Of a DNA stretch of 64,000 nt, positions 185 to 63,631 are shown in pieces. A program made the translations under genes and the position numbers. Below the pieces are notes generated by a model. It worked only from the letters and a program-made list of their open reading frames with translations, was not told where the DNA came from and did no database searches. This DNA is from Owenia fusiformis (taxonomy: Eukaryota > Annelida > Polychaeta > Sabellida > Oweniidae), in assembly GCA_903813345.2 (NCBI GenBank), contig CAIIXF020000007.1, positions 32,229,564 to 32,293,563 on the forward strand, in the 5' to 3' direction. The number at the start of each line of letters is the position of its first letter. Within the stretch, counting starts at the first letter, position 1.

Positions 185-598
185 AAATTCTCACCTGCAT
201 TAAGTGCAAATTCTCACCTGCATTAATTGCAAATTCTCACCTGCATTACATGCAAATTCTCACCTGCATTAAGTGCAAATTCTCACCTGCATTACATGCA
301 AATTCTCACCTGCATTACATGCAAATTCTCACCTGCATTAAGTGCAAATTCTCACATGCATTACATGCAAATTCTCACCTGTATTAAGTGCAAATTCTCA
401 CCTGCATTAAGTGCAAATTCTCACCTGAATTAAGTGCAAATTCTCATCTGCATTACATGCAAATTCTCACCTGCATTAAGTGCAAATTCTCACCTGCATT
501 ACATGCAAATTCTCATCTGCATTAAGTGCAAATTCTCACATGCATTACATGCAAATTCTCACCTGCATTAAGTGCAAATTCTCACCTGCATTAAGTGC
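185..598 (-). repeat. 23-bp minisatellite made of the SLC5 exon-4 splice donor
   Basis: About 18 tandem 23-bp units. Read on the minus strand, each unit carries TTAATGCAG|GTGAGAATT, which is the end of coding exon 4 of the SLC5 gene followed by its 5' splice site. The unit nearest the exon (position 586/585) is the functional donor and the array then runs into the intron. Variant units have CATGTAATGCAG instead of CACTTAATGCAG, and a few have GATGAG or GTGAG-to-ATGTG changes. There are no unique spacers, so it is not a CRISPR array. Confidence 0.93.
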
Positions 599-2776
599 CA
601 GAGATGGGGCATAAAGGACAACTGACATATACAGAATCTGTAATTGTAAAGTATTTACATGTAGTTTATACAACAGTTATGGAAAATACATAGTGAATCT
701 AGGATTTTTCATGTACATGTTCATAATTCAACGGAATTCAATAATTGGCTAAACTTTTAGGATATGTGAATAATTAAAAGTCTCAGCCTCTTATAATCAC
801 AAAATGATACCAAATTACAAATGTCTGAATTCAATTTTTGTGCCTAAACTTACCATTTGCAAGGAGAATGTCATAGATCCTGCAAGTCGCACACCTTTAC
901 TAAACCTCAACTCCAGGTACTAGAATACACAGAAAATACATTTGAGAGCAGGTTTTGATAGAAGTTTATGAAGTAGTATTCAAAATCTCTGGTGATTTCA
1001 GAATGAACTTTAAAATTGCTGAACTTCTGGTAGCTCTCATTCCTCACTAGAAAATATGTCTACCCGAGGATAAAGAGAAGTCCTGATCAACACAGAAGCA
1101 GCTGATAACTTAAAGACTTTCACAAACGGAGGTTGGAGATGTAGGGAACATTTGGAGATATAAAGTTAGCAGCTGATTTCAGTTTTCCAGTTTCAGACAT
1201 CATGAAACAAGTGATAGTGAGCGAGCAAAGGCTGTTCTATTAGATCAGTCAGCTTTTGAATCAGGTAAGCCATGCTGCTCTTACTATAGTTGCTACGGTA
1301 ATAAGAAAGTGACTTGAGACTTGGGCTGATTTCAATTCTTCTGGTCAGAATAATTCACCAGATGGTACAACATGAGTTTATACAATGATAACCATAGTAG
1401 CAAGATACCTACCTCATAAGCTGAAGTTAGGCCAAGGTTATAGAAGATTGGGATGTAAATATGTGCAGCACCAGGGATCACAAGGAAGTAGCTCAGCTAG
1501 AAGAGAGAATAACAACTTGAAATAATCAACAAACAATCTGGAGCTGTCTTCCCTAAAGGCCTCTACAGGATAATAGAGCTTTGCTATATAGCTTCGAAAT
1601 CCTGGGGAATGTTGAACTACTAGTAGGTACATTGTACATGTACCATTTGTGTTCTTTTTGATGCCATGTTTAAAGATGAATTACTCTTTTAATGATCAAA
1701 ATCTGCATGTCAACAAAACCACCTAGTTGTTTGTCAATAGACTTTATGCGAGTAAAAATGCTCTTGATTTACATCATTAAATATACAAAATTTAGTCAAA
1801 CTAATATATTTGAAATCAACATGTAAAATTACATCTAGCAATGTGGTTTCAAAAAATGTATATCAACTTTGAAAATCTTAATTTCTTCTAGGTTCTAGGT
1901 TAACTTCTAGGTCGGGAGATTCCTCATAGACCCCATGTTATAAAATCACAAAAGAGGAAATATCTTGTCTTGTATTCGACAGATAATAATCTTTCTTTTA
2001 CTGGATACATTTTGCCAGTTTCTCCAAATAAAGATGTGGTATTCTTGTATTGTAGTGTATTGTATTTTGTTTACCACCAATCAAGGTGAGTAATACCTGT
2101 GTATATCCTGTATATATACAGTCGTAATTTGTGTACTTAACCTTGAAGATAGACCCAGAAACCCCTCCTTGAAGGAACCCTGTATTGATAATCATTTAGT
2201 CCTCTCTTGCCTGTTTAATAGCAGGAATTGTTTTTGAAAATCAAACATTAATTGCAAAAATACATGTCCGAAATCATAACAAACAAAAAGGTTTCACAGA
2301 GGTGGTTTTCTCAAAAAAGGCAATAAAATAGGAATAAGGAAGAAGATGTTAGACCAAACTTTGCCCCGATAGCTCAGAAAAGGTAAAATTTATCAATTTT
2401 TCTCTCCACAGTCCTTGTAGCCGCTTTAAATTAAGTCCTCTATAGCATTCTACATGTAGACAATCTTCCTGTTCATACTCACAACAATGTAATTTCCTTA
2501 CAAAAGAAAGTAGAAAAATCATAATACCCCAATGATCATATACTGTGTTCCATATGTGTAGACTTCTGATGGCGTCCCTAGTAGCGTGATAGCAGACATG
2601 AAGCTGGCTAGTAAAGATAGCGCCACTGGTAGCACCTGCATTTGTCGATTAGCAAGTAAATATTCTTGAGTTGTTTTTTGCTTTCCTCCAATAAAAGCAT
2701 ACACAATCCCTATGCTTGCTGAGATTAACAGCACCAGAACAAACACAACATAATCTGCGGCTCCAAAACCACTCAT
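586..2776 (-). CDS. SLC5 family sodium-coupled monocarboxylate transporter (SMCT-like), 5' part
   Basis: Four phase-consistent coding exons: 2776-2528, 1496-1413, 919-854 and 637-586; the rest lies left of the window. The start at 2776 gives MSGFGAADYVVF, the usual N-terminus before TM1 of SLC5A8/SLC5A12/SLC5A6. Family signatures follow in order: YAFIGGKQKTTQEYLLANR in the first loop, ALSLLASFMSAITLLGTPSE (TM2, unwound sodium-site helix), IPIFYNLGLTSAYEYLELRF across exons 2/3, and ILYMSVVLYAPSLALNA in exon 4. Family members cotransport sodium with lactate, pyruvate or short-chain monocarboxylates (or vitamins for SLC5A6) at the plasma membrane; the exact substrate cannot be called from this half. 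All introns are GT-AG. The exon-4 donor lies inside a minisatellite made of copies of itself. The gene is divergent from GTF3C4, 5.2 kb away. Confidence 0.92.
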
Positions 2777-5700: not shown

Positions 5701-5974
5701 ATGAAAAATGCTCTGGTTTCAAACCCTTTTTAGAGGCTGGTATTCAAGAGGTTAAACTACTTTATAGTAGACGTAATGGTTTGATATTTGAACTAAATCA
5801 GACTATAAGACTATTAAAGACTTATGTAACTAACTTGCCCATGACAATTTTTCTTTATTCCTTTTTGCTTTGAATCTTTAATGCCATGGCATTAACTCAC
5901 AACCTATTATGTAACTTTTCACCATGTAGAATTTTAAAATATTAAGCATGAAAATTCATTTTCATGATGGATGA

Positions 5975-7290: not shown

Positions 7291-7559
7291 GACAGTACTG
7301 TCTACTTTTCCAAGATTTAACCTTCACGTTGTGATTTGTCAATGGAGGTACCTTTTTATTAACTAATTTTCACGAGGCAAAATGAAAGTACTCTAAACAA
7401 CAAGTACACGTATATACAGGAAAACTAAAGATATTACCCTAGCTTGTTTACCCACAGGCCCAGGAAGATTTAAATCCCCCCCCTCCCAGTCACTGTATAG
7501 CTGATGTAAACCTAATACACAGTGAGTGGGAGGGGGATGAACTCTTGTTCGCGTGTCTG

Positions 7560-10900: not shown

Positions 10901-13900
10901 GCCTCATTCATATCACTTCATGTATGTTATAAGCAAACATGTTGAAGAAACTATTCCAATATGCCATGTATTGACAAACTCCACATAAGTACAGTATTTT
11001 ATGTACATATTTTTTGTTTCAGTACCTCAAGTTGAATTGACATTAGAACACAGTATGCTCCCAGTGACATCACCTGGGAGTACTCAACCATTCCTTTCTG
11101 CTATTTGGTCACCAACTGCAGTTGATCCAATGAAAAGGTAAATGTAATAACTGATATGATTAAATAGAGTTGGACATGAGCAATGATATAATTCACTATT
11201 TTGAATTGATTAGTGGAGTAAATAGAGCACCATACATACACACTACATGTATGTGGCACTCTGTGCTGCACTTAATGTTATTTAGTGTTGTTATTTTAAA
11301 TCAAATTGGAATTAAACCTCCCTTCTAAAACCAATGATTCTTTGGGGATTATCTTGTGGGCTTAACCTTACTTTGTGAGTTTCAGATGTATGTTTGCCAG
11401 TGTGATACTGGACCATCATGTCCTTATCTATGGTCTTGGACCCTGATTAGTGGAGTGTTACCTAATTTTGTGATTTTCAGATGTGTGTTTGCCAGTGTGA
11501 CCCTCGACCATCATGTCAGAATGTACAGTCTTGGAGTGAGCAACTGTCGTTGGAAATGTGTAAGTCAATTATAAATTCATCAGACTAATCTATTAGTTTC
11601 TCAATTTCAACCAGATGTTAAAATATTGTCATGTTTTCAAATGCATTTTCTAGTTGTGACACATTTTCCTTTATGTATTTTCAAGGTATGTGATATAACT
11701 CAAGTTTACTATGAGCACATTAATCCCATTCTCTCTATGGGGTCCATTACTCATAGTAGAGCCTCTAAGTACAAACAACTTATGGAGAAACTCTGTTGTG
11801 TCGGTAAGTAAGAGTTCTCTATTATATAATAAGTCAGTGTCTAAGAGCATACAAATTGTCTTTCTCAAATTAAAGCCCTTGGTTTATTTCTAAACACAAT
11901 ATTACATGTATATCAAATTCAACATATGACTTTGGCCAATGATACTAGTGACATTATAGTTGCTTTGTTTATTTTTTATGTAATACCCTGAATCATATTA
12001 TACCCTGTATCATATGTTACCCTGAATCATATAGTACCCTGAATCAAATAATACCCTGAATCATATGTTACCCTTAATCATATAATAATCTGAATCAATA
12101 ATACCCTGAATCATATTATACCCTGAATCATATAGTACCCTGAATCATATAATACCCTGAATCATATAATATCTTAAATCATATGTTACCTCGAATCATA
12201 TAATAACCGAATCAGATTATACCCTGAATCATATGTTTCCCTGAATCATATGTTACCCTGAATCATATGTTACCCTGAATCATATGTTACCCTTAATCAT
12301 ATCATAACCTGAATCATACAATACCCTAAATCATATATTACCCTGAATCATATGTTACCCTTAATCATATAATGCCCTGAATCATATAATACCCCAAATC
12401 ATATGTTACCCTGAATCATACATTACCCTTAATCATATTTTACCCTGAATAATACAATACCCTGAATCATTATGTTACCCTGAATTATATGTACCCTGAA
12501 TGCTTAATATGCTAGTCACACAACACTCCCCTCTGACTATAATATCTGATTTTACAGTTTTGATTCTGATAGGATCTCAATTGTGGCTTTAATGGTCTTT
12601 TTATTATGAGTTTGGATGTGCAATGAATGTTAGTTACTTACAATGTATAAGCAGAACTATTCTGACTACATATTCCGATATGAACAGATCAAAGAATCAT
12701 CTCTACTTTTAAGAGTCTATTTCACAAAGTTGGGCTCTTGACAAGAGTAGGGAATACATATATTAAAGTGTGTTAATGTGAAGCAAACAATTTTGTTTCT
12801 TCAGATGTGACTTGGTCCAAGCTGTTCAATGAAGATGCATCTAAGCCCTACTGTTATCTGAGTTGTGCCATGAGGAATGGAGATATTGTCATATTCAAGG
12901 TTCACACACCTTGTCTCGACAGGTAAATATATTACATTAGAGCATCAAAGCAAATGCGCAATCTTTTGCACAACTATTTGGTCATAGTTTGTAAGTGATT
13001 ATTTGTAACAGCTTAAAGTAACTCTTCATTTCATGATAAACATCGTGATCTCAAGATTGTTACCATTTATTATCCCACCGAACGAAGTTCGAGGGGGATA
13101 TAGAAAAGCCGTCCATCCATCCGTTGTCCGTCCGTCCGTTCGTTCGTCCATCTGTTCGTGTGTCCGGGCAATAACTCAAATACCGGTTGACAGATTTCAT
13201 TCACATTTTATAGGCTTATGCCTTATGGGTGTAGGACCTCTGCTTGAGAAGGAATTTTCAATATGGCCACTAAATTCAAAATGGCGGCCATTTTTCGGAA
13301 AAAATATAATCTTTGATTACTCAAATACTAGTGGATGGATTTGGTTGAAATTTTATATGCTGTTGCCCAGGTACAGAGGAGCCTTGCTGAAGAAGACATT
13401 TTCAAGATGGCCACCATATTTCAAAATGGCGGCCATTTTTTGTAAAAAACGTTATCTTTGATAACTCAAGTACCATAGAATGGATTTGGATCAAATTTTA
13501 TATGCTGTTGCCTGGGTACAAAGGAGCCTTGCTCAAGAAGACATTTTCAAGATGGCTACCATATTTCAAAAAAACGTTATCTTTGATAGCTCAAATACCA
13601 TTGAATGGATTTGGTTCAAATTTTACATGCTGATGCCTAGGGACATTGGAGCTCTGTTCGAGACGGGATTTTCAAGATGGCAGCTAAATTTCAAAATGGC
13701 CGCCATTTTTCATAAAAGAATGTAACCTTTGTTAAAGTACCAGTTGACGGATTTTGATTAAATGTATATACTGATGCCTTTGGACATAGGAGCTCTGCTA
13801 AAGGAGAAATCTAAAGATGACAGCTGAATTTCAAAATGGCAACCATGTTTCATAAAAACACAATCTTTGCTGTTTTTCTAGTTATAAGAAAACATACCGA

Positions 13901-16900
13901 ACTAATGATTGTATGTGTATGTTTACAATTAAAATACCCAGTATTGAGAACTGGTTGAGATGCATGTACATGTATGAACAATATCTCACTGACATTTGGC
14001 ATTTCTTTTATCTTGTAAAGTACAACAAATCTGGCATATTTTATTTGCAAACAACTCCAGCATAGCTGTTACCATCACAGAAATTATAATTGTAAGTGTG
14101 TTCTACATAATGTGCTGTCAGTTCATACTGTGTACAATAATCCACGTTGTCATAGATACCATCAGATGCCACTGTGAAATCATTGTCAAAGTCACACTGT
14201 CCAATGTGAGCTTCATTGCCAATACAATCAACATTAGTTATCCAGGGCTTGTATTCATGTGTAAGATTGCCTTGTGTGGAAATGTATACAGATGCATTAT
14301 GGTAAGGTAGTCCAAGTTGTCGGCAGACTACTCTTGCATCTCTCTCGTCCCAACCAGAGGCACATATGGGGTGTTTATTAGGCTCATTTGATACGTGGTC
14401 AGATATCAACAGATGATCAAGTGTAACCAAACCACTGGAGTTGGTTTTGTCAGTTTTTGTTAACTTCAAAGACAGTTTTCGACAGAACACTGCAGCTCTC
14501 AAACCACCTTCAATGAACCCTTCATGCATCAATAAAAATAAATAACTCTTAAAGAAGTGTTACCCTAATATTTTCTCTGTCAGTTACCTTGAATAGTAAA
14601 TAAACTCTGATTTTTTCAGTTGATAGGGAGTTTAAGCTTGCATATAAAATTGAAACACCAACCTATACGTATGTCCAATCGCCCATACAAATGCAATGCT
14701 TAAATATTTTCCATTCACGTTTGGGTTGTGAAAAACATTGCAAGCTTAAACTCCCTATTGTAGTGTACAGTGTACTTGCTTTTGGTTTTGGTATAAGTTG
14801 TTATGTAATTTTAATGATACAAAACACAGAATGCTGTAGAAATGACTGTACTGTTTTGCAAATGTTGTTTCTTAATTATCTCTAAGATTTATTTAAGTTC
14901 TCTAATGACTATGTAACTGTGTAAAGGATGGTGGGGAGGGGGATGATAGTCTATCAAAAACATTTGATTTTCTTCAATAGATATCTAATGCTAAAATTTA
15001 GCCCCATATTTATACTTAAACATTTACTTGAACATGTGACATTGTCTCCATGTTTGAAAGTGCAATGTGCCAGACTCATTTCATCCCCTGTGCAGTTAAC
15101 ATCACTTAACACAATCTTGTCTCCACCAAGACACTGAAGCATTGGGAACTTGTCCACAGCTGCATCATTAACTGCATCTTCATTGTAACCTTGAAAGCAG
15201 AACATTCAATGTTGTCTATGTGGGCCTAAGAATTCATATCAGGCTTGGTGGGAAGTATGTCACTTTACTAATTATTGGTAATGAAGAAACATACAAAGAT
15301 TTGTAGAGGATGGTCGATTGGTGTTCTGTTGCCCTTTGTGCTTTCTACTCCCAAATTATGTTTGATTGCAACCACCATCAAATGAATATTTGGGGTTTGT
15401 TGGTTTTTAGCATGTTTTGTGTTCTCTAGCTAATAGTCAATTGTTACCCATTTGTCTGCAGACAACCTTTGCTTCATTTCTGGTCCACTTCTCTCCACAT
15501 ATTGTAAGTGGCTGCTTGTTAGTGTCATGGCTTTTAACTAGTACCAAGCCATTATCAATTGTATAGCCAGTCAATGTAGGCTGCAGGTATTCATGGAAAT
15601 CTGCACAAAAATATGTGACAATTTCTTCTGAAACATCTGTACACCCTTTTGTACCACTAAACCAGTGAATGAAAGTAATAGTGTAAAATTTGAATAGAAC
15701 ATGGCTGTTTACCTGGATTATGTTCAAAGCAGGATACACCAAGGTCATAGTGAAGGTCATGTGTACAGTTATTGTCATGGATGTGACAGAGATGGAGGGA
15801 TGGGTATCTATGATTACAGTTTAGCTCAATGCCTGGTTTTGATGTTCCTCCCCCAAAATAGCCGCTATATGGATGATCCCTCGCATACTGCCCTGGTCTC
15901 TTGAGCTTTCTGCAGATTGTTTCGGCAACAATTTCTTTTGAGCCATCTCCTTTGCGAAAACATACACGCTTCCATTTGCCTTCATGCCATATTTGGGCAT
16001 GTCCTGAGTATTCATCAGGTCCCCCTACTAGTCTGGCTTTCATGGAATCATCAGCACATGACATAAATACTCCACCATTTCTCTGACAGTTCATATGTTC
16101 GGAGTCATGTTCAAATGAAATAACCTTCCACTCAGAAAAATTACATTCACTGAGATTAGTTTCATTGCCATGGCATGTCATATCAGTTAATAGTACTCTG
16201 TTCACCTTTATATCAGTCCTGAAGTGTTCCGCATGATCTGGATTGTATCCCATTTGTCTACATGCCACCCTAGCAGCTCCACCGTTCCAGTTTGGATTGC
16301 ACATTGGGAAAGAAACGCCATTTAGATTCACAAACATATCACCAGTTTCATTGTGATTGTCCAAATGAATGTTGATCTTACTTTCTAAAATTTAAAAGTA
16401 AAAATGATAGTAGCAGAAATGCTTGGGTGGTCATGAATGTTCTTTTGCTCCACTTAATATATTACTTCAATTCAAATTTGCAAAAAATCATTATATTGTT
16501 TTCAACATGTGCAACTCTCTGCAACTACCTGTGCCATATCTTTCATAGTGGACTCCATTGAAAGGGGAGTCTGTGACTTTAATAGGGTGAAAATGGATCA
16601 GGGATGAGCATTTCAATAAGGTGACAATTTGTTAGAATGAGCACCTCAATACTGGGTGACAATGGGTTAGAATGAGCACCTCAATACTGGGTGACAATGG
16701 GTTAGGATGAGCACCTCAATACTGGGTGACAATGGGTTAGAATGAGCACCTCAATACTGGGTGACAATGGGTTAGAATGAGCACCTCAATACTGGGTGAC
16801 AATGGGTTAGGATGAGCACTTCAAATCTGGGTGACAATGGGTTAGAATGAGCACCTCAATACTGGGTGACAATGGGTTAGAATGAGCACCTCAATACTGG

Positions 16901-19900
16901 TTGACAATGGGTTAGGATGAGCACTTCAATACTGGGTAACAATGGGTTAGAATGAGCACCTCAATACTGGGTGACAATTGGTTAGGATGAGCACTTCAAT
17001 ACTGGGTGACAATGGGTTAGGATGAGCACTTCAATACTGGGTGACAATGGGTTAGAATGAGCACCTCAATACTGGGTGACAATTGGTTAGGATGAGCACT
17101 TCAATACTGGGTGACAATGGGTTAGGATGAGCACTTCAATACTGGGTGACAATTTATTAGAATGAGCACCTCAATACTGGGTGACAATGGGTTAGAATGA
17201 GCACCTCAATACTGGGTGACAATGGGTTAGAATGAGCACCTCAATACTGGGTGACAATGGGTTAGGATGAGCACTTCAATACTGGGTAACAATGGGTTAG
17301 AATGAGCACTTCAATACTGGGTGACAATGGGTTAGGATGAGCACTTCAATACAATGGGTTAGGATGTGATCCCACAGTGTCTCAGAATTTTATGGAGAAA
17401 TATGAAAAACCTCAAGAGCAAAACTAAACTCATGCTTTGTTTTATCAATGGCTTCATTTTTCATATCTTGTAAGTTACATATAATAACTAAATTGGTCAA
17501 GTCCTGATAGGATCATATGAACTGTTTGTTTTTACATGGGCTCATTTGCCCATTGGTTTATGTGATGTACATATTACAGAATGTAAAACACTCATGGCAG
17601 GGTTCTCACCAGGAAATTTTTAGACCCCGGGTTTTTAGCGATATTGTGACTACTTTTTTCGCGTTATCGCGACTTCTTCTCCCTCATGTGAGATCAGAGA
17701 TATCCTATCAATATACTTTTCAACATACTTCTTAAGATTATCTTGCTATTTTAATCCCAATATTTAATTCTAAAAGGTTTCTGACTTCCTTTAGACTCAC
17801 GAAAAAACACTTTAGACTCCGGAAAAGCTATTAGAGAATCTCCGGAGTCTAAAAGCCTTGTGAGAACCCTGCATGGTGTCTGCTCCTGCAAACATAAGAG
17901 AATTATATATATTGTTACTTTACACTTTATGTTCACAATGTGTTACATGTATTTTATAAGAAAATATTGAAGTTAATTCCTGAGTTCCCTCTGAGACGGC
18001 TGTGGCTATGGCCCTGAAATTGTGACAAGAAAAATTTCAACAATTTCAACTGGTTTTGATATTTTCTTAGGTTGTTTAAGCTATTTATCATTAACAGCTT
18101 GATCTTTAACCTTGACAAAATTTTTGATTAATAAATTCAGATTAAAATACCTGGTTTATCTGGGCAAGATAGAAGCAACATTTTTTCTTTATCATGACAG
18201 CGTGGTCTTGTTGATATGCACTTAGCCAAGCTATCTTCATTGCCCAGACATCGACCAACTTGAAACCAATCATGATTTACCATATCGGTACTTGTCTGTA
18301 TTGCCTTCGCATATCGTGATTCCATTCCTAGTCCTTTACAGGCTACTCTCAATGTGCCGGTTTCCCATTCCTTTAAGCATACACTCGTCCATCTCTCATT
18401 AACTAATACCTCCAGTTGTCCTGTTTTGCTATCACTCACCTGTTCTACAAGTCTCAATGGAAGCCTACAGGTTATAAAAACCATACTTGGTTGTCTATCA
18501 TATATATATGGTTCACCCCATTTTGTATGGTCACAGTTAAATATTGTGTCCTCATCCCCAGTACAGTAAACATCAAACATCCATGTAATCGTTGATATAG
18601 GGATATGTGTATGATCTATTGGGATGGACATTGCATCAGTAGTGCCATATCCCAATTTGTGACATACAACATCTGAAGCATTGTTCAATATGACATTCTC
18701 GTCACTTTGAGGTTGCCGTAGAGCTATTCCACCCCATACACCAAATTTCTTCATTATAAGTATTCCAGAGTAATTGTTAATCCCAGCCAGCATGATTTCT
18801 GGAGGATTATCTGAACAATATAAAGTTTATTTTGATTTTGGATGCTGTCTTTGATTGCTTAGTGTATGAGCTTTAATAGGCAATTAGTAATCCATGAATT
18901 ATTGCATACCATTACATGTACAAATCTAGAACTCTAATAAAGTACACAAAATAGGCAAAATAAAAAAATACTATGATTCTTAATTAGGAATCGTTAAATG
19001 ATGCATCTCACCTCTTGAGTTATTATTTTGACATTTGATACTAGCATATTTTCCTCTTTTACACTTGGGCAACCACCATATATCTAGATTACAATAGCCA
19101 AATATACATGGCCAATGTATCCACCATGTATCCTGCTTGTTTTTTCCAAAGTATGCATCACCAATGATGATTGGATTAACTGGCTTAACTCCCAACAGAG
19201 AACAGAAGTGTTCTGCAGCCTTTGGGCCGAGGGTTGAAGAATAACAGACTGATAGCCATCGTTTATTCTTGTAGACTTCCAGCCTTCCTGATGTATTGGT
19301 GCCATCTCTAAGTCGTATAATTGTTTTACATGTTGCCACAGCATCATTTCTTTTCTGTAAATCAGACTATGTTAAAAGATTATGTGCTTGGAACTTGATT
19401 ACATGTGTGGAAATACATGTAGATTAAAAGCAAAAACTGGAAAAGATAAAAAAAGTGCATTCCTATATTGGTATATATCTCTTCAATTGACAATTTACCA
19501 ACATCCCTCTTCTAAATTATTTCAACCCTATCTACTGAGTGATGGTTGGGTATAATCCAAATGTGTACCCTACAACGCTTGCTGATGTCCATGCTGCAGC
19601 TAGAGATATTGTCCTCAGTACCATTACATTGGACATTTCTAAATATATACCCAGCTTCCCTTCCATTGCCATATACTGGAGGATTCTTCTTATTTGAGGT
19701 TAAATCATCTGAATAAAAAAAATCTGCACAGATATATTAATTCCTAATTCACTCAAATTATTGAATCTCAAAAATAAGTAATGTTGGGAAACTGCAACTA
19801 TAATGGTATTTTATTGTATTTATTAAACATTACTGATATCATATATTACCATGTTACTTCAATCGAGTTGGAAGTTGATCAGAAAATTACAGGATCAGGA

Positions 19901-25900: not shown

Positions 25901-28900
25901 CATGTAAATAGTAGTTTTATGAAGTGATTTTGAAAAAGAAGTCAGCAAAAACATATATCTGCTGTTTTATTGTCCCCCATTTTAGCTATCATTGACATGT
26001 TCAGCAGTCTGTCTGTTTGTCAACTAAAGTGCTTCATTTTAAAAGCTCTGTCGATGGGATTCCTATTTTCCTAAGTTTTTTGATTCATCATCACTACAGA
26101 AATCCCTCTGTGAGTACTGGTTCAAAAGCTCACATATTTTCAAAATGGCCACCATTCTAGCCGCGGAAAATTCACATTTGGACCATTTAGTAGCTTTATA
26201 AATAATTTCAGATGACGTCACTTAAAAGTAGTTCATGAAATAATTTTAAAAAAAATGTATGTCCTCTTTTTTATTGTCAGCCATTTTAGCTATTATTCTC
26301 CTTTTCTCATTTTTAGCAACACCATGTGAGTCCTGTACCCATGGTACTATTTTTTCATATTGGTGCCAATTGGTTTTTGATTGGGTGCAAGCATATTTTC
26401 AGGTTCAGAATTGGACACTCTACCTAATATTGGTGAGAAAGAAATGCAATATAGCATCTTTAGTTAATATCATAAAGAAATGCAATATGGCATATTTAGT
26501 TCATATTATAAAGAAATGCAATATAGCATCTTTAGTTTATATCATAAAGAAATGCAATATGGCATATTTAGTTCATATTATAAAGAAATGCAATATAGCA
26601 TATATAGTTCATATCATAAAGGAATGCAATATAGCATCTTTAGTTCATATTATGAAGAAATGCAAGATAGCATCTTTAGTTAATATCATAAAGAAATGCA
26701 ATATAGCATCTTTAGTTCATATCACAAAGAAATGCAATATATCTTTAGTTCATATCGTAAAGGAATGCAATATAGCATCTTTCGCTCATACCATAAAGAA
26801 ATGCAATATAGCATCTTTAGTTCATATAAAGGAATGCAATATAGCATCTTTCGCTCATACCATAAAGAAATGCAATATAGCATCTTTAGTTCAAATCATA
26901 AAGAAATGCCATATAGCATCTACAGTTGCCTCATTGGCCATCAAATATATACTCTAATATATACTCTATAACAACTCTCATTGTTGCACATGAAAATGCA
27001 ATATTCTTGCAGGAGTTTCATTAGCAGCAGGCAACAGGTGATTTTCACTGGTTGTATTCACAAATTGAAATCCCCTGTTGTTTTGAAGGACTTCAACTTT
27101 TCCATGTTGAATTTATGATTTCCATTATATTATATGTTAGTTTTGCCTGTTGTTTTCATTTCAATCAAAGTTTAAAATCATCATACAAGTATTTAGCCTG
27201 TTGTGAGAAATTCTGGTGGAACATATGTCTTGTATAATTGACATTCTGATCCAGTTAGGTACATCATAATATTCATTATGTTTCAGGACTGCCTATTGCT
27301 GGCTTTAAAAGGAAACTATCTAATATGCACAAAACTGGCTGCTGAAGCTAATAGGGCTGTTGTTATAGTTTGTCAGAGCATACTGCAGGTCAGCGACTAT
27401 CTGCCTCCCACCCGTGTAGTATACAACAAAGGCAAATGCTATATTACTACGGTGGATAGGAGCATCACTATGTACACAATAGAATCTCAAGACAATGGTG
27501 AGAAATACGACCATGTACAGTGAATTAATATTTTTATGTTTTATTATATGCTCTGAATGACAAGTGTAGATTTCTTAGTTGTCTTCCATCTTTTGTGGCA
27601 GTCTGTTTAACATTTGTGTGTTTCAAAATGTTCATTTTTCATTCATGTATTTCTAAATACATTTATATCATATGCATGCCATTCCTGTAGCCAATGTAAT
27701 TGCATAGATTTGCGAAAAGTGTTTACATTGAATGAACATGCATTTTTCAGATATTCAAATACAGAAACAAGGGGATGAGGAATTGGCAAGCAGTAATCCC
27801 AATAAGACATGGGGGATACACGATGTCTGTGTTTCAAAAAACCAAGCACTGCTTGTTTTTATTGAAAGGTAAATATTATGTTCAGATACATACAGTATCC
27901 CATTTCCAGGTTATAACTACATTTTGACAGTTCATATCTTACATATTAATGATTTTAGTCTAAATATTTTTTGTGACTTCAACAATAAGGTGACATTTTG
28001 TCATGCCTTTTTAAAAATATTGGTTTGCTCATTTCAGTATTGTGACATATAAGGACCACCTGGCCAAAAATCCATATATTAAGGTGCAGCTACTCTCCAG
28101 GTTTTCGCAAGATCAGTGTCATCAGCTTCTTAAGGAAGATGGTAAGAAAACTAATACGTTACTTAATTAGGAATTACATCATATAATTATATAAGTTTCA
28201 TTTATTATTGCCATAATAACTTTTGTAGCAAATTGTACATGTGCAAAACAGAACAAATTTATTTATCAGGCTCATTGTAATTGAGGATGGGGCCAGGTGA
28301 TACTGCCCCCCCCCCCCCCACCTGTGGCACTCCACTTTGATGTAATCATCTTGGAGTGTCTTAGAGGACAAACACACCTGGGAGTGTATCAACTGATTGA
28401 ATAACTCTTTGCCAATTTCAGGTGACTTTCAATCAAGGAAGGACATCTTGGAGTGTCTTAGAGGACACCAATGTAGCAAACACACCTGGGAGTGTATCAA
28501 CTGATTGAATAACTCTTTGCCTATTTCAGGTGACTTTCAATCAAGGAAGGACATCTTGGAGTGCCTTAGAGGACACCAATGTAGCAAACACACCTGGGAG
28601 TGTATCAACTGATTGAATAACTCTTTGCCAATTTCAGGTGACTTTCAATCAAGGAAGGACATCTTGGAGTGTCTTAGAGGACAAACACACCTGGGTGTGT
28701 ATCAACTGATTGAATAACTCTTTGCCAATTTCAGGTGACTTTCAATCAAGGAAGGACATCTTGGAGTGTCTTAGAGGACACCAATGTAGCAAACACACCT
28801 GGGAATATATCAACTGTCCAGATAAAGATGACTTGGAGAAACAAAGCTATTTCCTCAAGATTAACAGGTATGTCTCCATGGTAAACCAAATAAGATTCTG

Positions 28901-31900
28901 GAAATGCTATTTTTAATTCAATATTATGTTTTTGAATATTTGGAAACAAACAGAATTGAACCTATTGGAAAACATTGTAATGGTTCAACAATTAATAAAG
29001 ATAATAAAGATTAATAATAAAATCAATTTAAAGAAAGCAGTTGTGCAAATACTGTATTGAAGTTCTAATCAACCCAGCTATGTTCCACTACATATTGAAG
29101 TCACATAGCCCATTAGCATTCTCCTGGTCTGAATATGAAGTTCTACTCAACCCAGCTATGTTCCACTACATATTGAAGTCACATAGCCCATTAGCATTCT
29201 CCTGGTCTGAATATGAAGTTCTACTCAACCCAGCTATGTTCCACTACATATTGAAGTCACATAGCCCATTAGCATTCTCCTGGTCTGAATATGAAGTTCT
29301 ACTCAACCCAGCTATGTTCCACTACATATTGAAGTCACATAGCCCATTAGCATTCTCCTGGTCTGAATATGAAGTTCTACTCAACCCAGCTATGTTCCAC
29401 TACATATTGAAGTCACATAGCCCATTAGCATTCTCATAGTTTGAATGTGAAGTTCTACTCAACCCAGCTATGTTCCACTACATATTGAAGTCACATAGCC
29501 CATTAGCATTCTCATAGTTTGAATGTGAAGTTCTACTCAACCCAGCTATGTTCCACTACATATTGAAGTCACATAGCCCATTAGCATTCTCCTGGTCTGA
29601 ATATGAAGTTCTACTCAACCCAGCTATGTTCCACTACATATTGAAGTCACATAGCCCATTAGCATTCTCATAGTTTGAATGTGAAGTTCTACTCAACCCA
29701 GCTATGTCCCACTACATATTGAAGTCACATAACCCATTAGCATTCTCTTGGTCTGAATATGACCTCCTGTTTTAATCCTTGTTTTCCTTTCAGATTTATT
29801 GTACTCAATGAGTTAGAGCAGTTAAAGTTTGAATGCCAGACCAGACAAATAATACCAGATGTTGCATTTCAAAAAATAGAAGTAAGGCCATATTTCTATA
29901 TTTCACTGCATTTGTATATGATTTGATGCCAGATAAGAAATAGATTTCAAATGGCACTGATATCCAGGCCAGGGTGACACAAAAAGTCGGCCCTTGGTAT
30001 CATCAAATAACTGACAATTATTAGAGCCTCCATAAGTTCTGACAGTGAAACTCTAGGAATTGACAAATATATCGTCTGATAAGTTTGTTAATCAATGTGG
30101 TGCATTCATAAGTGGTATTTGTGTTATCTTTAGGCAAACACAGCTTTGACTTCTGCAATAGTGATCGAGTGGCCAATGTAGCGATTGTACTTCTTTCAGT
30201 CTTAGGATATTCATCATCTGGCGTGTTGAAATACAGGTGCTTTTAGCAACCCATATCAACTTATGAGATCACTTTTTCTTTTCAGGATAGAATGAAGGTG
30301 CTTATCAGGGATCTGAAGAACTTTGAGAAATCTCTACATCTTCTTTTTGCCTCAAAGTATGTCCCCAAATTGATGCAATACCCCAGTGATGCCATCTCAG
30401 ATTTTGGTGAGTAAGATTATGAGTGAAGCCAACTTAAATATCATCATCTGATATTGATTTAAGTTTTATGTCTTTCTAAGTTGGGGAATCAAAGATCGAC
30501 AATAATAGTGTAAAATGTATGAAATGATTTATTTAGATAAGGGAGTTAATGATGCTCAAAATGTCACAAATTGATCACTATATTATACAGTTACTATAAA
30601 GTCAATGGTTTTGTGCTAAGGCTATGGGACATAAAGGGACCTTATTTGTTTCCAAATACATTCTTGTAGGTGACACATCTGATAGCACAGATACTAGTTT
30701 TCTTCATGAAAAAAAATCAAAATTCTGCAAAAAATTCTGCAAGAAAAAAAGCAAATTCTGCAAGGAGAAAATCGAAATTCTGCACAAATTTTCAAAAAAA
30801 GTCAAAATTCTGCAATCTTTTAAAACAATGAAAATTGACATAGCAAGGGATTTACCTTTCTAGGTAAGAACTGCGCGTCATTAGCGAACTCGCTTTAGCG
30901 AATTTAAATGTGATAGAATGTTGAATTTCACGGTGAAATCGTACTTGTACTCAATAATGATTGATTGTTGGACATAAACAGACACTCTTCAAATACCCCG
31001 CAAAGGTAGGAGATCGTAAAATATGTAATTTCTGGAAATTCTGGTAATTCCGCGGGATTTTCATGAAAATCAGGGATTCTGCAAAAAATTGAAGTTTTGT
31101 CAAACTCTGTCCACGCCGCGGAATTACGGAATACTAGTATCTATGTGATAGGTTCCCTGAAGGCCCACCCTGTGGGGTAAAAAAGAACTACATAAAATAA
31201 CCCTCCACAGCCACGCCCGGTGATCGTGAATATGGGACGGAGGGGGGGAGCAGGCAATTTCTGCTAGGAAATTCAACAAATCTGGAAGATTTATTTTTTC
31301 AAGAAAAAGTTTACTATTGAATTGCTAAATGGATAGGCGCACGATATGGTAGAATATGTTAGGTTTTCTGGGATTTTTTCTGAAACGATACGCATCTAAG
31401 GTATGAGATCTATTAAAAAAGGCGCAGGGCCATCAACAGGCACAAATCAACGTTTTTGCTATAAATCAAGCAACAATGGTCTGGACGACCTGTAATAAAT
31501 ACTTGTAAGTGATGTTATCATAACTAAATTAATGTCATTGCTGAATTTATAAAATGAGTTTCCATATGTGAAATAAAAAATAATCGAAAATAATGAATTT
31601 GGGACGGAGGGGGGGAGGGGACGGAGGGGGGAGCAATATGTATATAAGACATGATTAGAGATGTTTCGCGACTTTAAGTCCTTTTACTCCAAATGTCCCC
31701 ATTTTTCAGTCTCCAGGGGTATATCATCCAGTTTCTTACTAAGTTAATGAGTTCATTTTTCAAATACAAGAATTCGTGTGAAGTTGTTTCACTTTATAGA
31801 ATTATTACTCCCCCCCCCCCTCCGTCCCCTCCCCCCCTCCGTCCCATTTTAATTATTTTCGATTAATTTTTATTTTACGTATGAAAACTTATTTTATAAA

Positions 31901-45474: not shown

Positions 45475-45511
45475 CCTAGCTAGGAGGGATAAAATATAAT
45501 ATATACAAATG

Positions 45512-49735: not shown

Positions 49736-49739
49736 ATGA

Positions 49740-56005: not shown

Positions 56006-59000
56006 ATGGGAGTTATGGAGTTCTTTAGAGATATCTTTAAGAAGGTTGAGAATTTATTCGATTCCATGGGACTCAAGAAATATGAACTCTCCGACTTTCA
56101 GAAGAAGAAACTTCTGCATGAATTCCACACATTCTATGGTACGTATAGTGTACATTTCATACATTCAATGGTCCATGGTACATATAGCCTACATATCACA
56201 CATTCTATGGCACGTATAGCCTACATTTCACACATTCTATGGTACGTATAGCCTACATTTCACACATTCTATGGTGCGTACAGCCTACATTTCACACATT
56301 CTATGGTACGTATAGTGTACATTTCACACATTCTATGGTACATGTAGCCTACATTTCACGCATTCTATGGTACGTATAGCCTACATTTCACACATTCTAT
56401 GGTCCATGGTACATATAGCCTTACATTCTATTGTTCATATAGTCTACATTTTACACATTCTATAATACATATAGCCTATATTTCACACATTCTATGCTAC
56501 GTATAGCCTACAATTTCCACATTCTATGGTGCGTATAGCATTCATTTCACACATTCTATGGTACGTATAGCCTAAATTTCACACATTCTATGTTACGTAT
56601 AGCCTACATTTTCACATTCTATGGTACGTATAGTCTACATTTCACACATTCCGTGGTCCATGATACATATAGCCTACATATCACACATTCTATGGCACGT
56701 ATAGCCTACATTTCACACATTCTATGGTCCATGGTACATAAAGCCTACATTTCACACATTCTATGGTACGTATAACCTACATTTCACACATTCTATAGTA
56801 TTAGTACATATAGCCTACATTTCACACATTCTGTGGTACGTATAGCAGGCATTTCACACATTCCATGGTACGCATAGCCTGCATTTCACACATTCTATGG
56901 TACGTATAGTCGACATTTCACACATTGTATGGTACGTATAGCCTACATTTCACACATTCTATGGTACGCATAGCATACATCCTTTACATTCTATGGTACG
57001 TATAGCCTACATTTCACACATTCTATGGTATTGGTACACATAGCCTACATTTTACACATTCTATGGTACGTATGGTCGACATTTAACACATTGTATGGTA
57101 CGTATAGCCTACATTTCACACATTCTATGGTACGTATAGCATGCATCCTTTACATTCTATGGTATGTTTAGCCTACATTTCACACATTCTATGGTATTGG
57201 TACATATAGCCTACATTTTACACATTCTATGGTACGTATGGTCGACATTTAACACATTGTATGGTACGTATAGCCTACATTTCACACATTCTATGGTACG
57301 TATAGCATGCATCCTTTACATTCTATGGTATGTTTAGCCTACATTTCACACATTCTATGGTATTGGTACATATAGCCTACATTTTACACATTCTATGGTA
57401 CGTATGGTCGACATTTAACACATTGTATGGTACGTATAGCCTACATTTCACACATTCTATGGTACGTATAGCATGCATCCTTTACATTCTATGGTATGTT
57501 TAGCCTACATTTCACACATTCTATGGTACGTATGGCATACATCCTTTACATCCTATGGTGGTACCTCTCAACACATGCAATAATAGTTAAGTCAAACGAA
57601 TGCAAATAGTAACGTAGGGTATACCAATGGAAACAAAAACACTGTGGATAACATACGGTACCCCCTCCTGGAATCAAGGATGTGGAAACTTATTGAGGAC
57701 TTCGTGATACGTCGTATCCTCGTATCTTTGGTCTTGTCGTAATAATGACTACATGTATACGACCAATCACGATCGACAGAGAGTCTCTTATCCTTCCGGA
57801 TATTTCCGTTTATTTTGTAGTATTAGTCACGTGCAGACCTACATGCAACAAGTAATATTAAACATACCGCTACAATTCCATACATTTTATACTAATACAA
57901 TAAATTCATGAAACACAAACTTTACTCCACGATATATCAATAACTCTATCTAACTATAACTAAGTAAAGGTTATCAGTGCTATTACTATATTAATTCAAC
58001 AAATGATAATACATTTTGCAGAACGCTCTTCTACAACATAATGTTAATCATAGACCTTTTTGTTTGGAAATACAAATTTGTACCCTGCGTGCAGAGTCTA
58101 GTTAAACTACAAGACGAAGACGAAGCTCTCTTTTAAGAAGTGAAGTCAAACGAATGCAAAGTGTAACAAATTTGGGGTGTGCAGTGTATTTAGCTGTCAT
58201 CCTCATGAGAATAATAGAGTAAATAAGACTTATTAAACCAATTATTGTAAATTCAAAGCATTTCATATATGTAGTATTTAATATATGTGCCTTGGATATA
58301 GTCGTTTTCTGGATTAATTATTCAATAGCCAAGTAATAATGTTATTATGATGGCGTTGACTAACACATGTACGTTTGAGTGTAGTCTATTCTCTAGGGTA
58401 CTCTTTGAAATGGATTTTCATGAAAACGTATTTTCACGAACTGTAAATTCAAATGAATTGTTAGACATCATACAGTATTTTATTGTATTGTATTGTATTT
58501 TATTGTGATGTATTGTATTGTATCGTATAATATTATGATTGTATTTTTGTATATTTCCTCCTCCAGGGACAGTACATTTAATATGATAACATTTTAATTA
58601 TAGAATACAGTAATATTTACAAACGAAAACTATTGGGAAATACAGAGCTTGGCCAAAGTGCAATTGTTTCTGGCATTCGGTAACATACTTTGAATCAAAA
58701 TTCAATTTCATCCCTAGTCTCAATTTTCATACCCTGATATGATGCTCAGTATATCAAATTATAATATACTGTATCGTCGACTCAATTACACTCCCATCTT
58801 TTAATCAATGTAATGAATATTTCTATTGACCTAGGACCTACGGGTAAACTATTCAGCTTGTAATGTAGTTGGCAGCCTTTGTTTATAACAGCATCATTTA
58901 ATTTATCGCAACAATACAACATCTGTAGTCGGGAATGCCAAGATGAAATATCAGTTTTATGACAGTTCAATTCTGACTTAATCAGAAATAGCAATTGAAT

Positions 59001-62000
59001 GAGTCATTAATGAAGATAATAGCTATATGTTCTGATGTACACTCCCCTCCATAAGTTTGGCAACCCTAGGTCCCCCATTGAACTACGCGTTAAAGCCCCT
59101 TTACGTTTGAATTTTTATTTACTTACCCTGCGATGAAATTACTTATAATATTGATGGAAACTTGACTTTATTTCCAATACCTCCAAATTTCCCCAATTTT
59201 TTCCTCAATTATAATAGGTCGAAAACTGATGACAAATATGATGAGTTTTTAAAAAACGTCTTTCCCATGTAAACCAATGGGAAATGGTGGGTTAGGGGCA
59301 AATCAGACATCAGGATATCTATTCAGCAAAAGATCCAGCAAAAATATTTTTATATAGAAAATTAAATCGTCTAACTTTTTGTGCACTAAGTATTTAGTTT
59401 ACTTGATGAATATTAAAGTAACAGGGCTTCAAAGTCATTTTAAAAATCATTTTTCGCCTCCTGCGTTATTTCAATGGGAAAGTTTTTTTTGGAAAACAAT
59501 TTTGACTTTAAAGACCTATAACTTTGTTGAACCTGACGAAACGTATCAATTTTTTGTTAATAACTTGTATTTTTGTAAGGACTCGGATGGATGGATATTC
59601 TGTCAAATGGCTTGCGGCAAACCTACCATTTCCCATTGGTTAACATGGGAATGTCGATTTTCAAAAATTCATCAAATTTATCATCAATTTTCGACCTATT
59701 GTTACTGAGGAAACAAATTGAGAACATTTGGAGGTATTGGAAATAATGTCAAGTTACGTTTCCATCAATGTTATAAGTATTTCTATAGCAGGTTAAGTAA
59801 ATAAAAATTCAAATGTAAAGAGGCTTTAACACGTAGTACAATGGGGGAGCAAAGGTTGCCAAACTTATGGAGGGGGTGTATTTAAACAACAATGGTAAAT
59901 GCATTGACCAGGAAAGTGTATCACAATATCTGAAATAAACTGATTAATAAAAACAAAGATCTTTCGCATCTCCTACTGTCACCTTCAAGTCGTCATCATC
60001 ATTTCATCCTTCATATTCATTCACTTTTCATTCACGTTTATCAATTTGTCTCTTACACGTTTTCCAATCACGTTTCTGCCCTATATGTACACTTGTACAG
60101 GGTGGTTCAAAAAATGGGACACTCGTATTTCTAAAATAAACAATGATTGTATTTATGAAAACATGTCATATTATATATACCAGTGGATATGGAATTCACT
60201 TTCCTTTAATTTGGTATATCATAATTTCAAATTTATTATAATACATGTCAACCAGCGTCCATAATACAAATGACGTCATTTTCGTTGCAAAAACAAGTTT
60301 TTTTCTACAGAAACAGATGTTCAACGTGTCCTGCATTTTGATCAATTATAACCCCCAATATTGGCCTAAACTGATCAGTAACATCATTGATATGCTGTTG
60401 AGACAGTGAATTCCACTTCTCAACAATTCTGTCCTTTAAGGACTGAAAAGATGTAAGGAGTTCATGATACACTCCCCATATGTGGCAGTCGCAGACGTTG
60501 GCATCAGGTGATCTGGAGGGCCAGTGATAAGGGGGTATGAATCGAGGCACATTCTCCTTTAAATATTTTACTGCCTTGTGGGATCTATGATTTGGAGCCC
60601 CTTCTTGTTGGAAAATGTAATTAACAGAATATGAGATCAGGAATAAGTCCTCAGTGCAGGATATATTGAATCGTCCCCTTAATTTCTCCCTCAAACCAGA
60701 ACACCCAATGCTAAATTCTGCCACGTATGAGGAGAACTAACAGCGTTGGTGTACCATAAACTTCGTACATCTATTCAGTCCTTTAAGGACAGAATTGTGG
60801 AGAAGTGGAATTTATTCTTTCAAAAGCATATCAATGATAAATCAACAAGTTTATATTTGATCAGAATAGTGGACATATTGAGCTTCTGCTTATGTTGACA
60901 AAAAACTTTTGAAAAACCGTTTTGAAACGAAAATGACGTCATTTGAATTATGGACACCGGTTGATAGGGATTATAATAAATTTGAATTTATGATATACCA
61001 AATTATAGATAAGTAAATTCCCTATCCACTGGTATATAATATGATACGTTTTCATTCATAATATCAATTTTTATTTTTGAAATACGAGTGTCCCATTTTT
61101 GGACCACCCTGTATATTTTATTGGTGAATATGTCTGTAATGTCTTAGGTCGATTGACATTATTACATTTTTGTTAATTGTTATTTATTAATTTATGCAAT
61201 AAATACTGGAAAAAGCAACCAAATGCAACGGTTATTATTAATTCGGGATGATGCTTAACTAGGTTTAAACGTTTTATGTATCACTTATAGTTTCAAAATA
61301 ATCACTCAAAATACTGTATGGTTCTGTATGCATATAATATGTATATTCCAGATGCTAACAAGGATGGCTGTCTGGAGTGGAAAGATCTCAATTTGGCTAG
61401 AGAGGTGAGTAGAAGTCGTTTCATTCAATTCATAAAACCTATTTATGTCATCATTTGACACCAATACTGTATGCGTAAATGATAATCTATTGCATTTATG
61501 AGGATCATCCTCGACCTCGCAATAAAATACACCCATACCTCAACGCTGATTTTCCCTGCATGTTTCCTTTGGTTAATATCCGCGACCATCCCAAGGTTCT
61601 GCCCCTGTCGGTATGCTTCCCATTTTGAATAAATCACCATGTTATGTTTTTCCAAAGCAGAATCCATATTTATCATGATTGCCCAAAAGAATGCATGTTC
61701 ATTTTCTTCACACATTTGTGTGTAACATCCATTTATAAAACCCAGGTGTCTCCCTTGCCCTTTATGCCCCCAATAATGATATGTGGAAGTAATTTTACGA
61801 CATACATACTATTGAATTTTTCAGAACATTTGCAAAATGAATGGATGGAAAATAGATTCAGAAAAGTACAAACATGCGCAGGAGTTGTTCACGGAGATAT
61901 GGCGTTATCTGCAGGATTCCGCTGATGGGGACTTTGATGGTAAAGTTACAGAAGATGAATGGGTAAGCAGCTAAATAGTCTACCAAAGTTACGTTACTAC

Positions 62001-63631
62001 TTACGCGTCTTGGGCCATAGGTGATAAACTAAATATACCGTATTTACACGTACTTGTAGTTGTCACGCTAGTATAGGTCTCCCAACCATCACTTATAATC
62101 ATGAAAAAGCACAAAAGGAAACATTTACCTTGGAAAAGTCTGGTTATAAACTACGGAAACGAAGCTCTCTTTTAAGAAGCTAAGTCGAACAAATGCAAAG
62201 AGCAGTTACTACTAAAGAAGCCAGAAAATGAACTACATTTTGGAAGACAATGAATTTGACATCAATTTGTGAGAGAACTCACACTTTCATTACTTCCATA
62301 ATTCTGACGAAATCCATTTTGTATAATCAACATGGATGCATATAATTTTGTTTTTATTTTTGAGTAATTTCTTTAAATTATTATCAAAATTGAAAAGTCC
62401 AAATTTTCTTGGAATGCGTACGAGTACAGGAAGCATTTTTGAAATTCCAATGGAATGCTCATGTATAATGTATGTATGAATAATAGGAAAATGCATACCA
62501 TTCTCTTGAAGGTTCTTGTTTCGACTGATGATATTTATTGAGGTCAAGATAGTATTCGTAGATATTCTTTAAATATATCCAGTTTGTTAAAGTTTTCAGT
62601 CGATGTACAGGAAATCAAGCATGTAACGTTGAATGTTTTCAGACAATTAATCAGAAACAAACGTAACAAGAAACAAACCACTTACTCGTGTCTAGGATGA
62701 AGGAAACAATTCACATCTTCATCCTAGCTCGTGTATAAGACGATATTATACGATTATATGGAAATACAGTCATGCGTGTATATGTGTGTATACTAAGAAT
62801 ATGAAAATTTATACTAAAAGCAGCAGTTAAATTTCTGCAATGGGGTTCTACAATTCCCCTAGCATCAATTTGACGTTCGTTATATGACAAGATTGATAAT
62901 ATACGTATCAAAACATGGAAGTATGTATTAAAACATTGCTTATAATTTCTTTTCATTTCAATAATTTCCCGTTGGTAATAAGAGGTGCACACTTTGTAAT
63001 CCGAGTGGGAATTTTGTTCAATTAAACGTACTGGTTTGATTTAATTCACTGTAATGTATCTTATGGTGACAGCGGCGGGTCACCTTACACTTCGTGCTGT
63101 ATCATTATTAAAATACAACACTGAATACATGACGAATGATGGGAACACATATGTAACGATAAACCACGTTTTCAGCTTCGCTCTCCGGATTTGTTCCGTT
63201 CGTCACGTGGTTGAAGATTCTATTCTTTTCAGTTGTTGATGTGGCAAGGTCTTATCTTATTCTTGATCCACAGCTTCCAGGATTCGTTGTGTTTGTTACT
63301 ACCATTCTATTCTTTTCAGTTGTTGACGTAGCAAGGTCTTATCTTATTCTTGATCCACAGCTTCCAGGATTCGTTGTGTTTGTTACTACCATTCTATTCT
63401 TTTCAGTTGTTGATGTGGCAAAGTCTTATCTTATTCTCGAGCCACAGCTTCCAGGATTCGTTGTGTTTGTTACTTATAGTTGACCATTCCATTCTTTTCA
63501 GTTGTTGATGTGGCAAGGTCTTCACAGAGACCATCTTCGGGCAGTTCGAGAAGGCAAGGCTGAAGATGATAGTATACCCCGATGGCTCGAGAAATACATA
63601 GAATATAGATTCAATTTATATGATAGGACAG
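56006..63631 (+). CDS. Calexcitin / sarcoplasmic-type EF-hand calcium-binding protein, 5' part
   Basis: Four phase-consistent exons: 56006-56138, 61352-61404, 61825-61962, 63502-63631; the gene continues right of the window. The protein so far begins MGVMEFFRDIFKKVENLFDS and then matches the calexcitin family: LSDFQKKKLLHEFHTFY, EF-hand 1 with loop DANKDGCLEWKD (its first Asp codon is split by intron 1), NICKMNGWK, EF-hand 2 with loop DGDFDGKVTEDE, then LLMWQGL, IPRWLEKYIEYRFNLYDRTG leading into a third EF-hand. Calexcitins are neuronal calcium and GTP-binding proteins in molluscs, and relatives buffer or sense cytosolic calcium. The N-terminal extension of about 30 residues is unusual compared with squid calexcitin. 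Intron 1 begins inside a minisatellite and holds two transposon copies. Confidence 0.9.
56120..57560 (+). repeat. 32-bp minisatellite made of the calexcitin exon-1 splice donor
   Basis: About 45 units of CACATTCTATGGTACGTATA followed by GCCTACATTTCA. CACATTCTATG|GTACGTATAG is exactly the last exon-1 codons plus the 5' splice site (56138/56139), so each unit repeats the donor. Between about 57027 and 57525 five-unit blocks form a 166-bp higher-order repeat with three copies, marked by ATGGTATTGGTAC. Units vary in the donor core (GTACGTATAG, GTACATATAG, GTATGTTTAG). Confidence 0.95.
58472..58545. repeat. (TATTG)n-type microsatellite
   Basis: Imperfect TATTGTATTGTATTT repeats in calexcitin intron 1. 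Confidence 0.85.
59040..59878. mobile_element. TA-flanked non-autonomous Tc1/mariner-like element
   Basis: Long terminal inverted repeats begin CACTCCCCTCCATAAGTTTG and end with the complement (CAAACTTATGGAGGGGGTG). TA dinucleotides flank both ends (59038-59039 and 59879-59880). Inverted similarity extends more than 250 bp inwards on each side. There is no transposase; the open frame at 59379-59708 is within the arm and centre and is not coding. Located in calexcitin intron 1. Confidence 0.88.
60098..61111 (-). mobile_element. Mariner-type transposon remnant with long inverted arms
   Basis: The ends are CAGGGTGGTTCAAAAAATGG and the complement of the right end, TGTCCCATTTTTGGACCACC then CTG, flanked by TA (60096-60097, 61112-61113). 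Arms of about 340 bp (60098-60445 and 60774-61111) are inverted copies. They include the 3' end of the transposase gene, so the right arm carries a second, mutated and inverted copy of codons for LKDRIVEKWN. This indicates an internal inverted duplication of the 3' half of an autonomous element. Confidence 0.88.
60305..60724 (-). pseudogene. Truncated DDE transposase (Tc1/mariner, DD37D-like spacing)
   Basis: An open frame of 139 aa corresponding to the C-terminal half of the catalytic domain. It has FQQEGAPNH (family form QQDGAPxH) and WPSRSPDANVCDCHIWG (family form SPDLNPxDYxxWG). The second catalytic Asp is replaced by Glu. Between it and the last Asp there are 37 residues, as in the DD37D group rather than classic mariner (34). 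The N-terminal DNA-binding domain and the first catalytic Asp are missing. Not expected to be active. Confidence 0.88.
63211..63501 (+). repeat. Tandem copies of the calexcitin exon-4 acceptor and exon start
   Basis: Three decoy acceptors, each TTCTTTTCAG|TTGTTGA, have exon-side starts at 63233, 63320 and 63407 (87-bp period); the real exon starts at 63502. The decoys share only the first ~18 nt of the exon (TTGTTGATGTGGCAAGGTCT) and then diverge into TATCTTATTCTTGATCCAC. The second decoy has GACGTAG, putting a stop in the exon frame. The 87-bp period keeps a 90-codon frame open, which is an artefact. Confidence 0.94.

Follow-up and report, generated by a model that had tools for sequence, protein, structure and literature searches.

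We analyzed a 64,000-nucleotide stretch of Owenia fusiformis DNA (here, the window) in which tandem arrays lie against splice junctions of three genes, those for an SLC5-type transporter, GTF3C4, and calexcitin. An earlier note on this DNA had described five arrays as built of the very splice site that they adjoin, and all five were confirmed, four with TRF and one by alignment of its two copies; TRF at a score of 50 misses the pair of copies at GTF3C4 exon 4. Junctions were placed by homology, reading phase, and eye. Each array crosses its junction (two donors and three acceptors), and every unit contains both exon-edge and intron-edge bases, as had also been claimed. TRF matches of 78 to 92% in the four arrays that it detects show that the copies have diverged from each other.

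The SLC5-type transporter is encoded on the minus strand, where an exon at positions 586 to 637 (translation, ILYMSVVLYAPSLALNA) ends at 586 and the intron runs from 585 downward. The donor array (185 to 598, detected by TRF) consists of 18 copies of a 23-bp unit, 13 bp of exon and 10 bp of intron, with TGCAG/GTGAG at the junction and ALNA encoded by the exon part. The copy at the exon end would be the working donor; GT is retained in 15 of the 17 other copies of the site, here termed decoys. The joined exons matched a Na-dependent multivitamin transporter (phmmer, 1.6e-22), with the alignment stopping exactly at LALNA, as well as Pfam SSF (3.6e-9). Positions 1 to 184 are dissimilar to the array, and the acceptor of this intron lies beyond the window edge.

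Two acceptor arrays are found in GTF3C4, on the plus strand. The first, at exon 4 (11481 to 11559; CVFASVTLDHHVRMYSLGVSNCRWKC), spans 11356 to 11535 and holds two copies (11356 to 11440 and 11450 to 11535) 95 bp apart, whose alignment places a decoy acceptor at 11385/11386 and the putative working acceptor at 11480/11481. The copies are identical in 69 of 86 columns, with a local score of 102, whereas 200 shuffles gave 38 at most. Exon 4 is compatible in phase with exons 3 and 5, and the joined exons that include it matched Pfam TFIIIC_delta (2.7e-14, residues 63 to 181). The second array (28349 to 28816; TRF span of 28369 to 28816, with a partial copy starting near 28349) adjoins exon 12 in the earlier note's numbering, located at 28735 to 28867 (DFQSRKDILECLRGHQCSKHTWEYINCPDK...). 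Its 108-bp unit (70 bp of exon and 38 bp of intron) occurs in four copies, with acceptors at 28422, 28530, 28638, and 28735, the last being the apparent working site (28734/28735), at spacings of 108, 108, and 97 bp; all three decoys retain AG. A PDB search with GTF3C4 exons, this one included, returned no relative, and the placement of this exon is by frame and by phase, which is continuous with the exon ending at 28141 and the next exon near 29795. The sole Pfam match of the joined downstream exons was zf-TFIIIC. The intron directly after the exon at 28735 contains a further array, of 78 bp or 26 codons (29058 to 29762), which reaches neither junction and has a frame open across about its first five copies. 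Several SRCR-like open frames, recognized by eye on the minus strand at 14041 to 19366, inside the long GTF3C4 intron, apparently represent a nested gene.

Calexcitin, also on the plus strand, carries the longest series of copies. The coding part of exon 1 (56015 to 56138; MEFFRD...EFHTFY/G) was assigned by phmmer to calexcitin 4ndb (whole-sequence E value of 1.4e-5), the aligned stretch being LSDFQ..FNTFY, with EFHTFY opposite VFNTFY, and downstream an open frame resumes the EF-hand loop, DANKDGCLEW. The donor array (56122 to 57560; TRF, 56122 to 57542) has a 32-bp unit in ~43 copies and a 166-bp higher-order repeat; the likely working donor is at 56138/56139, and 34 of 39 decoys keep GT. At exon 4 (63502 to 63631; LLMWQGLHRDHLRAVREGKAEDDSIPRWLEKYIEYRFNLYDRT), TRF detected an acceptor array with an 87-bp unit in 3.4 copies (63217 to 63522), in which acceptors at 63233, 63320, and 63407 precede the presumed working one at 63502 (63501/63502; spacings of 87, 87, and 95 bp). 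AG is retained in all three decoys, and the exon part of the unit encodes LLMWQGL. The alignment of this exon to calexcitin SLPEWLTKYMNFMFDVNDTSG is weak and partial. An open frame on the minus strand at 60305 to 60736 resembles the end of a mariner-type transposase.

The earlier note knew of no named system like this, but the arrays match the description of the "mirages" of amphioxus. Passages of two papers (PMC3087553 and PMC3902484) describe these as tandem repeats over exon-intron boundaries in Adh3, in the globin genes BflGb6 and BflGb9, and, added in the second paper, in TnC and PGBD5, with units of 10 to 72 bp (Adh3), 60 and 108 bp (PGBD5), and 150 to 160 bp (globins). According to the same passages, AG/GT is intact in many copies, and regular splicing is reported to be undisturbed. 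Length instability, somatic or between haplotypes, is a further attribute of mirages, one that the Owenia arrays would presumably share. The Owenia arrays likewise cross boundaries at donors and acceptors, with AG/GT in most copies. Within the portion of the open-licence literature consulted, mirages are named in amphioxus, and related boundary duplications are described in human, potato, and fission yeast; in the portion on earthworm metallothionein intron minisatellites, there is no mention of junction-spanning repeats. The arrays described here are real and widespread, and they belong to a kind of repeat that already has a name.

Our preferred explanation, to which we assign a probability of about 0.8, is that these mirage minisatellites were born as ordinary minisatellites with a junction in the seed and were tolerated. 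A segment of 20 to 260 bp that straddled an exon-intron border by chance would have been duplicated in tandem, through slippage or unequal exchange, and would then have grown like any minisatellite, with the copies coming to lie in the intron, each bearing a splice site flanked by its exon and intron edges. Such a change would be nearly neutral, because in this mechanism the copy adjacent to the intact exon remains functional and in use, and the remaining splice sites would drift as idle decoys. Slippage or unequal exchange, near-neutrality, and use of the exon-nearest site are the parts of this explanation that we infer from the sequence. The last of these had been put forward in the earlier note, and it fits the reading frame and phase of the genes, plus homology for most of them. 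The arrays appear to be harmless. In unit size, copy number, and divergence, they resemble ordinary intronic minisatellites, which are common in this genome (221 kb of the sample described below contain 74 arrays) and from which they differ only in the inclusion of a junction in the seed.

The order of events can be read from the copies themselves. The exon parts of the arrays at SLC5, calexcitin exon 1, and SMC4 (a gene found in the genome search below) are shared with distant relatives, and the exon side is therefore older than the array; because every copy holds both an exon edge and an intron edge, the junction preceded the expansion. This speaks against the suggestion that the arrays are intermediates of intron sliding or of intron birth by AGGT duplication, a route for which precedents exist. 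Passages of PMC4974935 set out the AGGT model, where a duplicated exon segment supplies the two splice sites of a new intron, together with fission yeast examples and a tandem duplicate with splice signals that crosses an intron-exon border in potato RdRp. In passages of PMC3087553, the amphioxus authors suggest that mirages can seed new introns, and passages of PMC2812944 state that boundary minisatellites in human may cause novel introns. The Owenia arrays share tandem duplication of splice signals with such Rogers-type intron gain but show no sign of a new intron; instead, an existing intron has been lengthened from one end. All five window arrays occupy one intron end and are separated from the other splice site (or, in the case of SLC5, from the window edge) by 184 bp or more of non-array DNA. 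The far ends of the two GTF3C4 introns lie outside the arrays (donor sides at 28142 and 11138, arrays from 28349 and 11356), calexcitin intron 1 continues beyond 57560 to past 61 kb, and the exon 4 acceptor array starts only at 63217. As far as the window reaches, none of its five introns takes both splice sites from the duplicated segment. We regard intron birth or sliding as very improbable here. The human minisatellites, which expanded in segmental duplications, resemble the Owenia arrays in their position at exon-intron boundaries (with units of about 30 bp); passages of PMC2812944 associate them with changed gene structure, possible novel introns, and often alternative transcripts, whereas the Owenia coding exon looks unaltered.

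An assembly artifact seems extremely unlikely. Tandem arrays pose difficulties for assembly, their copy numbers may be inaccurate, and one mirage was misassembled in the amphioxus draft, according to passages of PMC3087553. Against this stand the divergence among copies noted above for the four TRF arrays, the occurrence of arrays in unrelated genes on chromosome-sized contigs, and the resequencing that, in passages of PMC3902484, confirmed similar repeats in amphioxus PGBD5.

We then considered the decoys as a set, using 14 arrays, the 5 of the window and 9 from the genome sample (the L177, L155, L171, and donor-motif arrays were left out). GT or AG is retained in 92 of 100 decoys, and by a generic matrix, 54 decoys equal or outscore the working site. 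Such values might be expected of ladders of decoys selected to tune splicing, as the earlier note had suggested. However, an open in-frame message would result from only 2 of 99 decoys with GT/AG, and multiples of three are not favored among the unit lengths (4 of 14 arrays, including the 108-bp unit of the array at 28349). Conservation was assessed in 9 of the 14 arrays (97 decoys; the 11481, L022 donor, L040, L093, and L095 arrays were omitted), and the majority base was kept at 184 of 194 GT/AG positions (94.8%) and at 1,611 of 1,746 other positions up to 10 bases from the junction (92.3%) (P = 0.25). In these nine arrays, the GT/AG dinucleotides of the decoys thus give no indication of selection in either direction. 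A comparison with the working copy instead (92 kept, 76 expected) proved to be biased, and the difference was gone when decoys were scored against their own majority base. A selected ladder therefore has very little to recommend it, and the decoys fit idle copies, as expected of tolerated minisatellites, better than they fit a series of isoform-producing sites.

To estimate how common mirages are elsewhere, we sampled exons by domain, irrespective of repeats. The genome comprises 498.3 Mb, with ~478 Mb in 12 contigs of 32 to 62 Mb and GC contents of 35.6% and 34.8% in samples, and in this it differs from that of amphioxus, which has 19 chromosomes and a GC content of ~41%. The sample drew on protein kinase (103 of 144 matches), myosin head (92 of 92), and DEAD-box (45 of 52) matches; among the kinase matches, full-length or intronless, stop-rich, and near-identical copies were for the most part dropped. 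With flanks, it covers 254,750 bases in 157 loci, with 184, 180, and 64 domain-internal edges, respectively, or 428 in all. At 33 kinase edges out of 184, the matrix detected no splice site close to the edge of the model, so some counted kinase edges are not junctions, although one of the 33, the donor of locus L040, is a clear junction by eye.

TRF arrays cross 9 of the 428 domain-internal edges, or ~2% of those in the kinase, myosin head, and DEAD-box sample. Three are donors (L022, L040, and L093) and six are acceptors (L022, L057, L095, L107, L113, and L177). The kinase exon of L022 (G000:C5:68921-70277) has a mirage at both ends, with an 86-bp unit at the acceptor and a 71-bp unit at the donor. 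The other donor arrays have units of 54 bp (L040, about 44 bp of it exon) and 34 bp (L093, a marginal case with an exon overlap of only four bases), and the other acceptor arrays have units of 51 bp (L057), 259 bp (L095), 61 bp (L107), 32 bp (L113, with 14 to 15 decoys), and 88 bp (L177). Beyond this strict count, we noted arrays at a donor at the end of a kinase domain (L083) and at the acceptor of an unmatched exon (L171), as well as two diverged copies, seen by eye and absent from the TRF list, at another acceptor (L155). An array on the donor side of L113 was left uncounted because its first base lies some 8 bases into the intron. A looser TRF setting on the kinase sample gave 133 arrays with several weak junction overlaps that resembled noise, and these were set aside.

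Are junctions hit more often than other intron DNA? The earlier note held five of about 32 introns to be far above chance. In the window, 27 arrays with a summed unit length minus 7 of 923 predict ~0.9 junction units, compared with 4 found by TRF, but this expectation uses 64 junctions (the ~32 introns of that note) and a window singled out for these very arrays. For the sample, on the assumption that arrays can start at any noncoding position, we multiplied the edges by the sum of (unit - 7) over nonexonic bases, which requires the junction to lie some 4 bases or more from either end of the unit. The nine observed edges compare with 6.15 expected from all arrays (ratio, 1.46; P = 0.17) or 4.22 with the junction arrays removed (ratio, 2.13; P = 0.03). 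By base coverage (4.6% of the sample), 19.6 crossed edges would be expected, more than the 9 seen, although an array could scarcely extend over the exon side without harm.

We complemented the sample with an independent, genome-wide search for three tandem copies of a strong donor motif, with the reversed motif as a control and arrays counted by eye. For CAGGTRAGT, 173 matches were listed, and the first 100 of them (contigs C1 to C7:31.3 Mb; 279 Mb) contain 15 arrays, compared with 6 control arrays in the same 279 Mb (9 in all), where the ratio of single sites (8,880 motif and 6,072 control) predicts 8.8 motif arrays; this difference by itself has a P value of 0.18. The second motif, AAGGTAAGT, showed no excess (about 6 arrays with 7,133 single sites versus 12 control arrays with 11,820), and both motifs combined gave a ratio of 1.47 (P = 0.15).

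The flanks were read for 20 of these arrays, 15 CAG and 5 of the 6 AAG arrays, the sixth AAG array being excluded as spread over several kilobases. In 11 of the 20 (L122, L127, L129, L130, L131, L132, L133, L135, L136, L138, and L140), the first donor copy closes an open reading frame. L129 is SMC4 (3.8e-32), with the alignment end coinciding exactly with the donor. Ten of the eleven exons (all but L122) were compared with Pfam, yielding matches to BTB (1.2e-14), ERAP1_C (5.5e-10), and PF15874 (7.6e-8) and weak matches to P450 (0.09) and Sortilin-Vps10 (0.12); three exons were unmatched, and the SMC4 and L127 pieces matched only unrelated families, weakly. L138 had a single, seemingly unrelated PDB match (E = 0.06). 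Database support is firm (<1e-7) for 4 of the 11 exons, and the other 7 are putative exons by open frame and reading.

Taken together, the sample ratios and the donor-motif ratio indicate at most a mild excess at junctions, well short of the earlier note's impression; a strong mutational bias is not borne out, while a mild one may exist. A true hot spot, in which sequence motifs, R-loops, or nucleosome edges raise array starts at junctions about twofold or more, could account for the ratio of 2.1 in the sample and for the CAGGTRAGT arrays. Against it count the drop in the ratio once all arrays enter the expectation, the coverage-based expectation, the P value for CAGGTRAGT by itself, and the second motif, and we think it rather unlikely. 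Purely random seeding, in turn, leaves a possible residual excess, of up to about twofold, unexplained. A broader proposition, that mirages are a genome-wide protostome feature affecting ~2% of junctions (or thousands of them, should the sample reflect the whole genome) and that junction DNA is duplicated ~2 to 3 times more often than other intron DNA, is offered only tentatively, as doubtful on the present counts. If true, mirages would not be a peculiarity of amphioxus, nor would their placement be wholly random, and they would provide a standing stock of unused splice sites.

The new element is the estimate that ~2% of sampled junctions are affected, in a lineage other than amphioxus. To our knowledge, this is the first frequency estimate for junction-spanning minisatellites. 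Compared with the amphioxus mirages, the Owenia set has a measured frequency (9 of 428 edges), includes one 259-bp unit, and reaches ~43 copies, and its splicing is predicted from sequence. If the exon-nearest site is used, the spliceosome passes over up to dozens of similarly strong decoys, and these genes offer ready-made tests of exon definition and of the frequency with which junction duplication yields new introns.

Three further repeats were noted. Window positions 13247 to 13696 and L091:1098-1866 (gene-oriented) seem, by eye, to belong to one internally tandem, dispersed repeat, GGATTTGGATCAAAT...TATATGCTG. A kinase exon is tandemly doubled in L073 (G000:C10:2256396-2257705; profile positions 101 to 149 and 101 to 143), the first copy running into a stop codon. 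L090 (G000:C9:37986009-37994334) contains 12 separate matches to nearly one myosin head piece (profile positions of about 18 to 84) within 8.3 kb; these make up a large cluster of exons lying in tandem in a single myosin gene, and the exons may be mutually exclusive.
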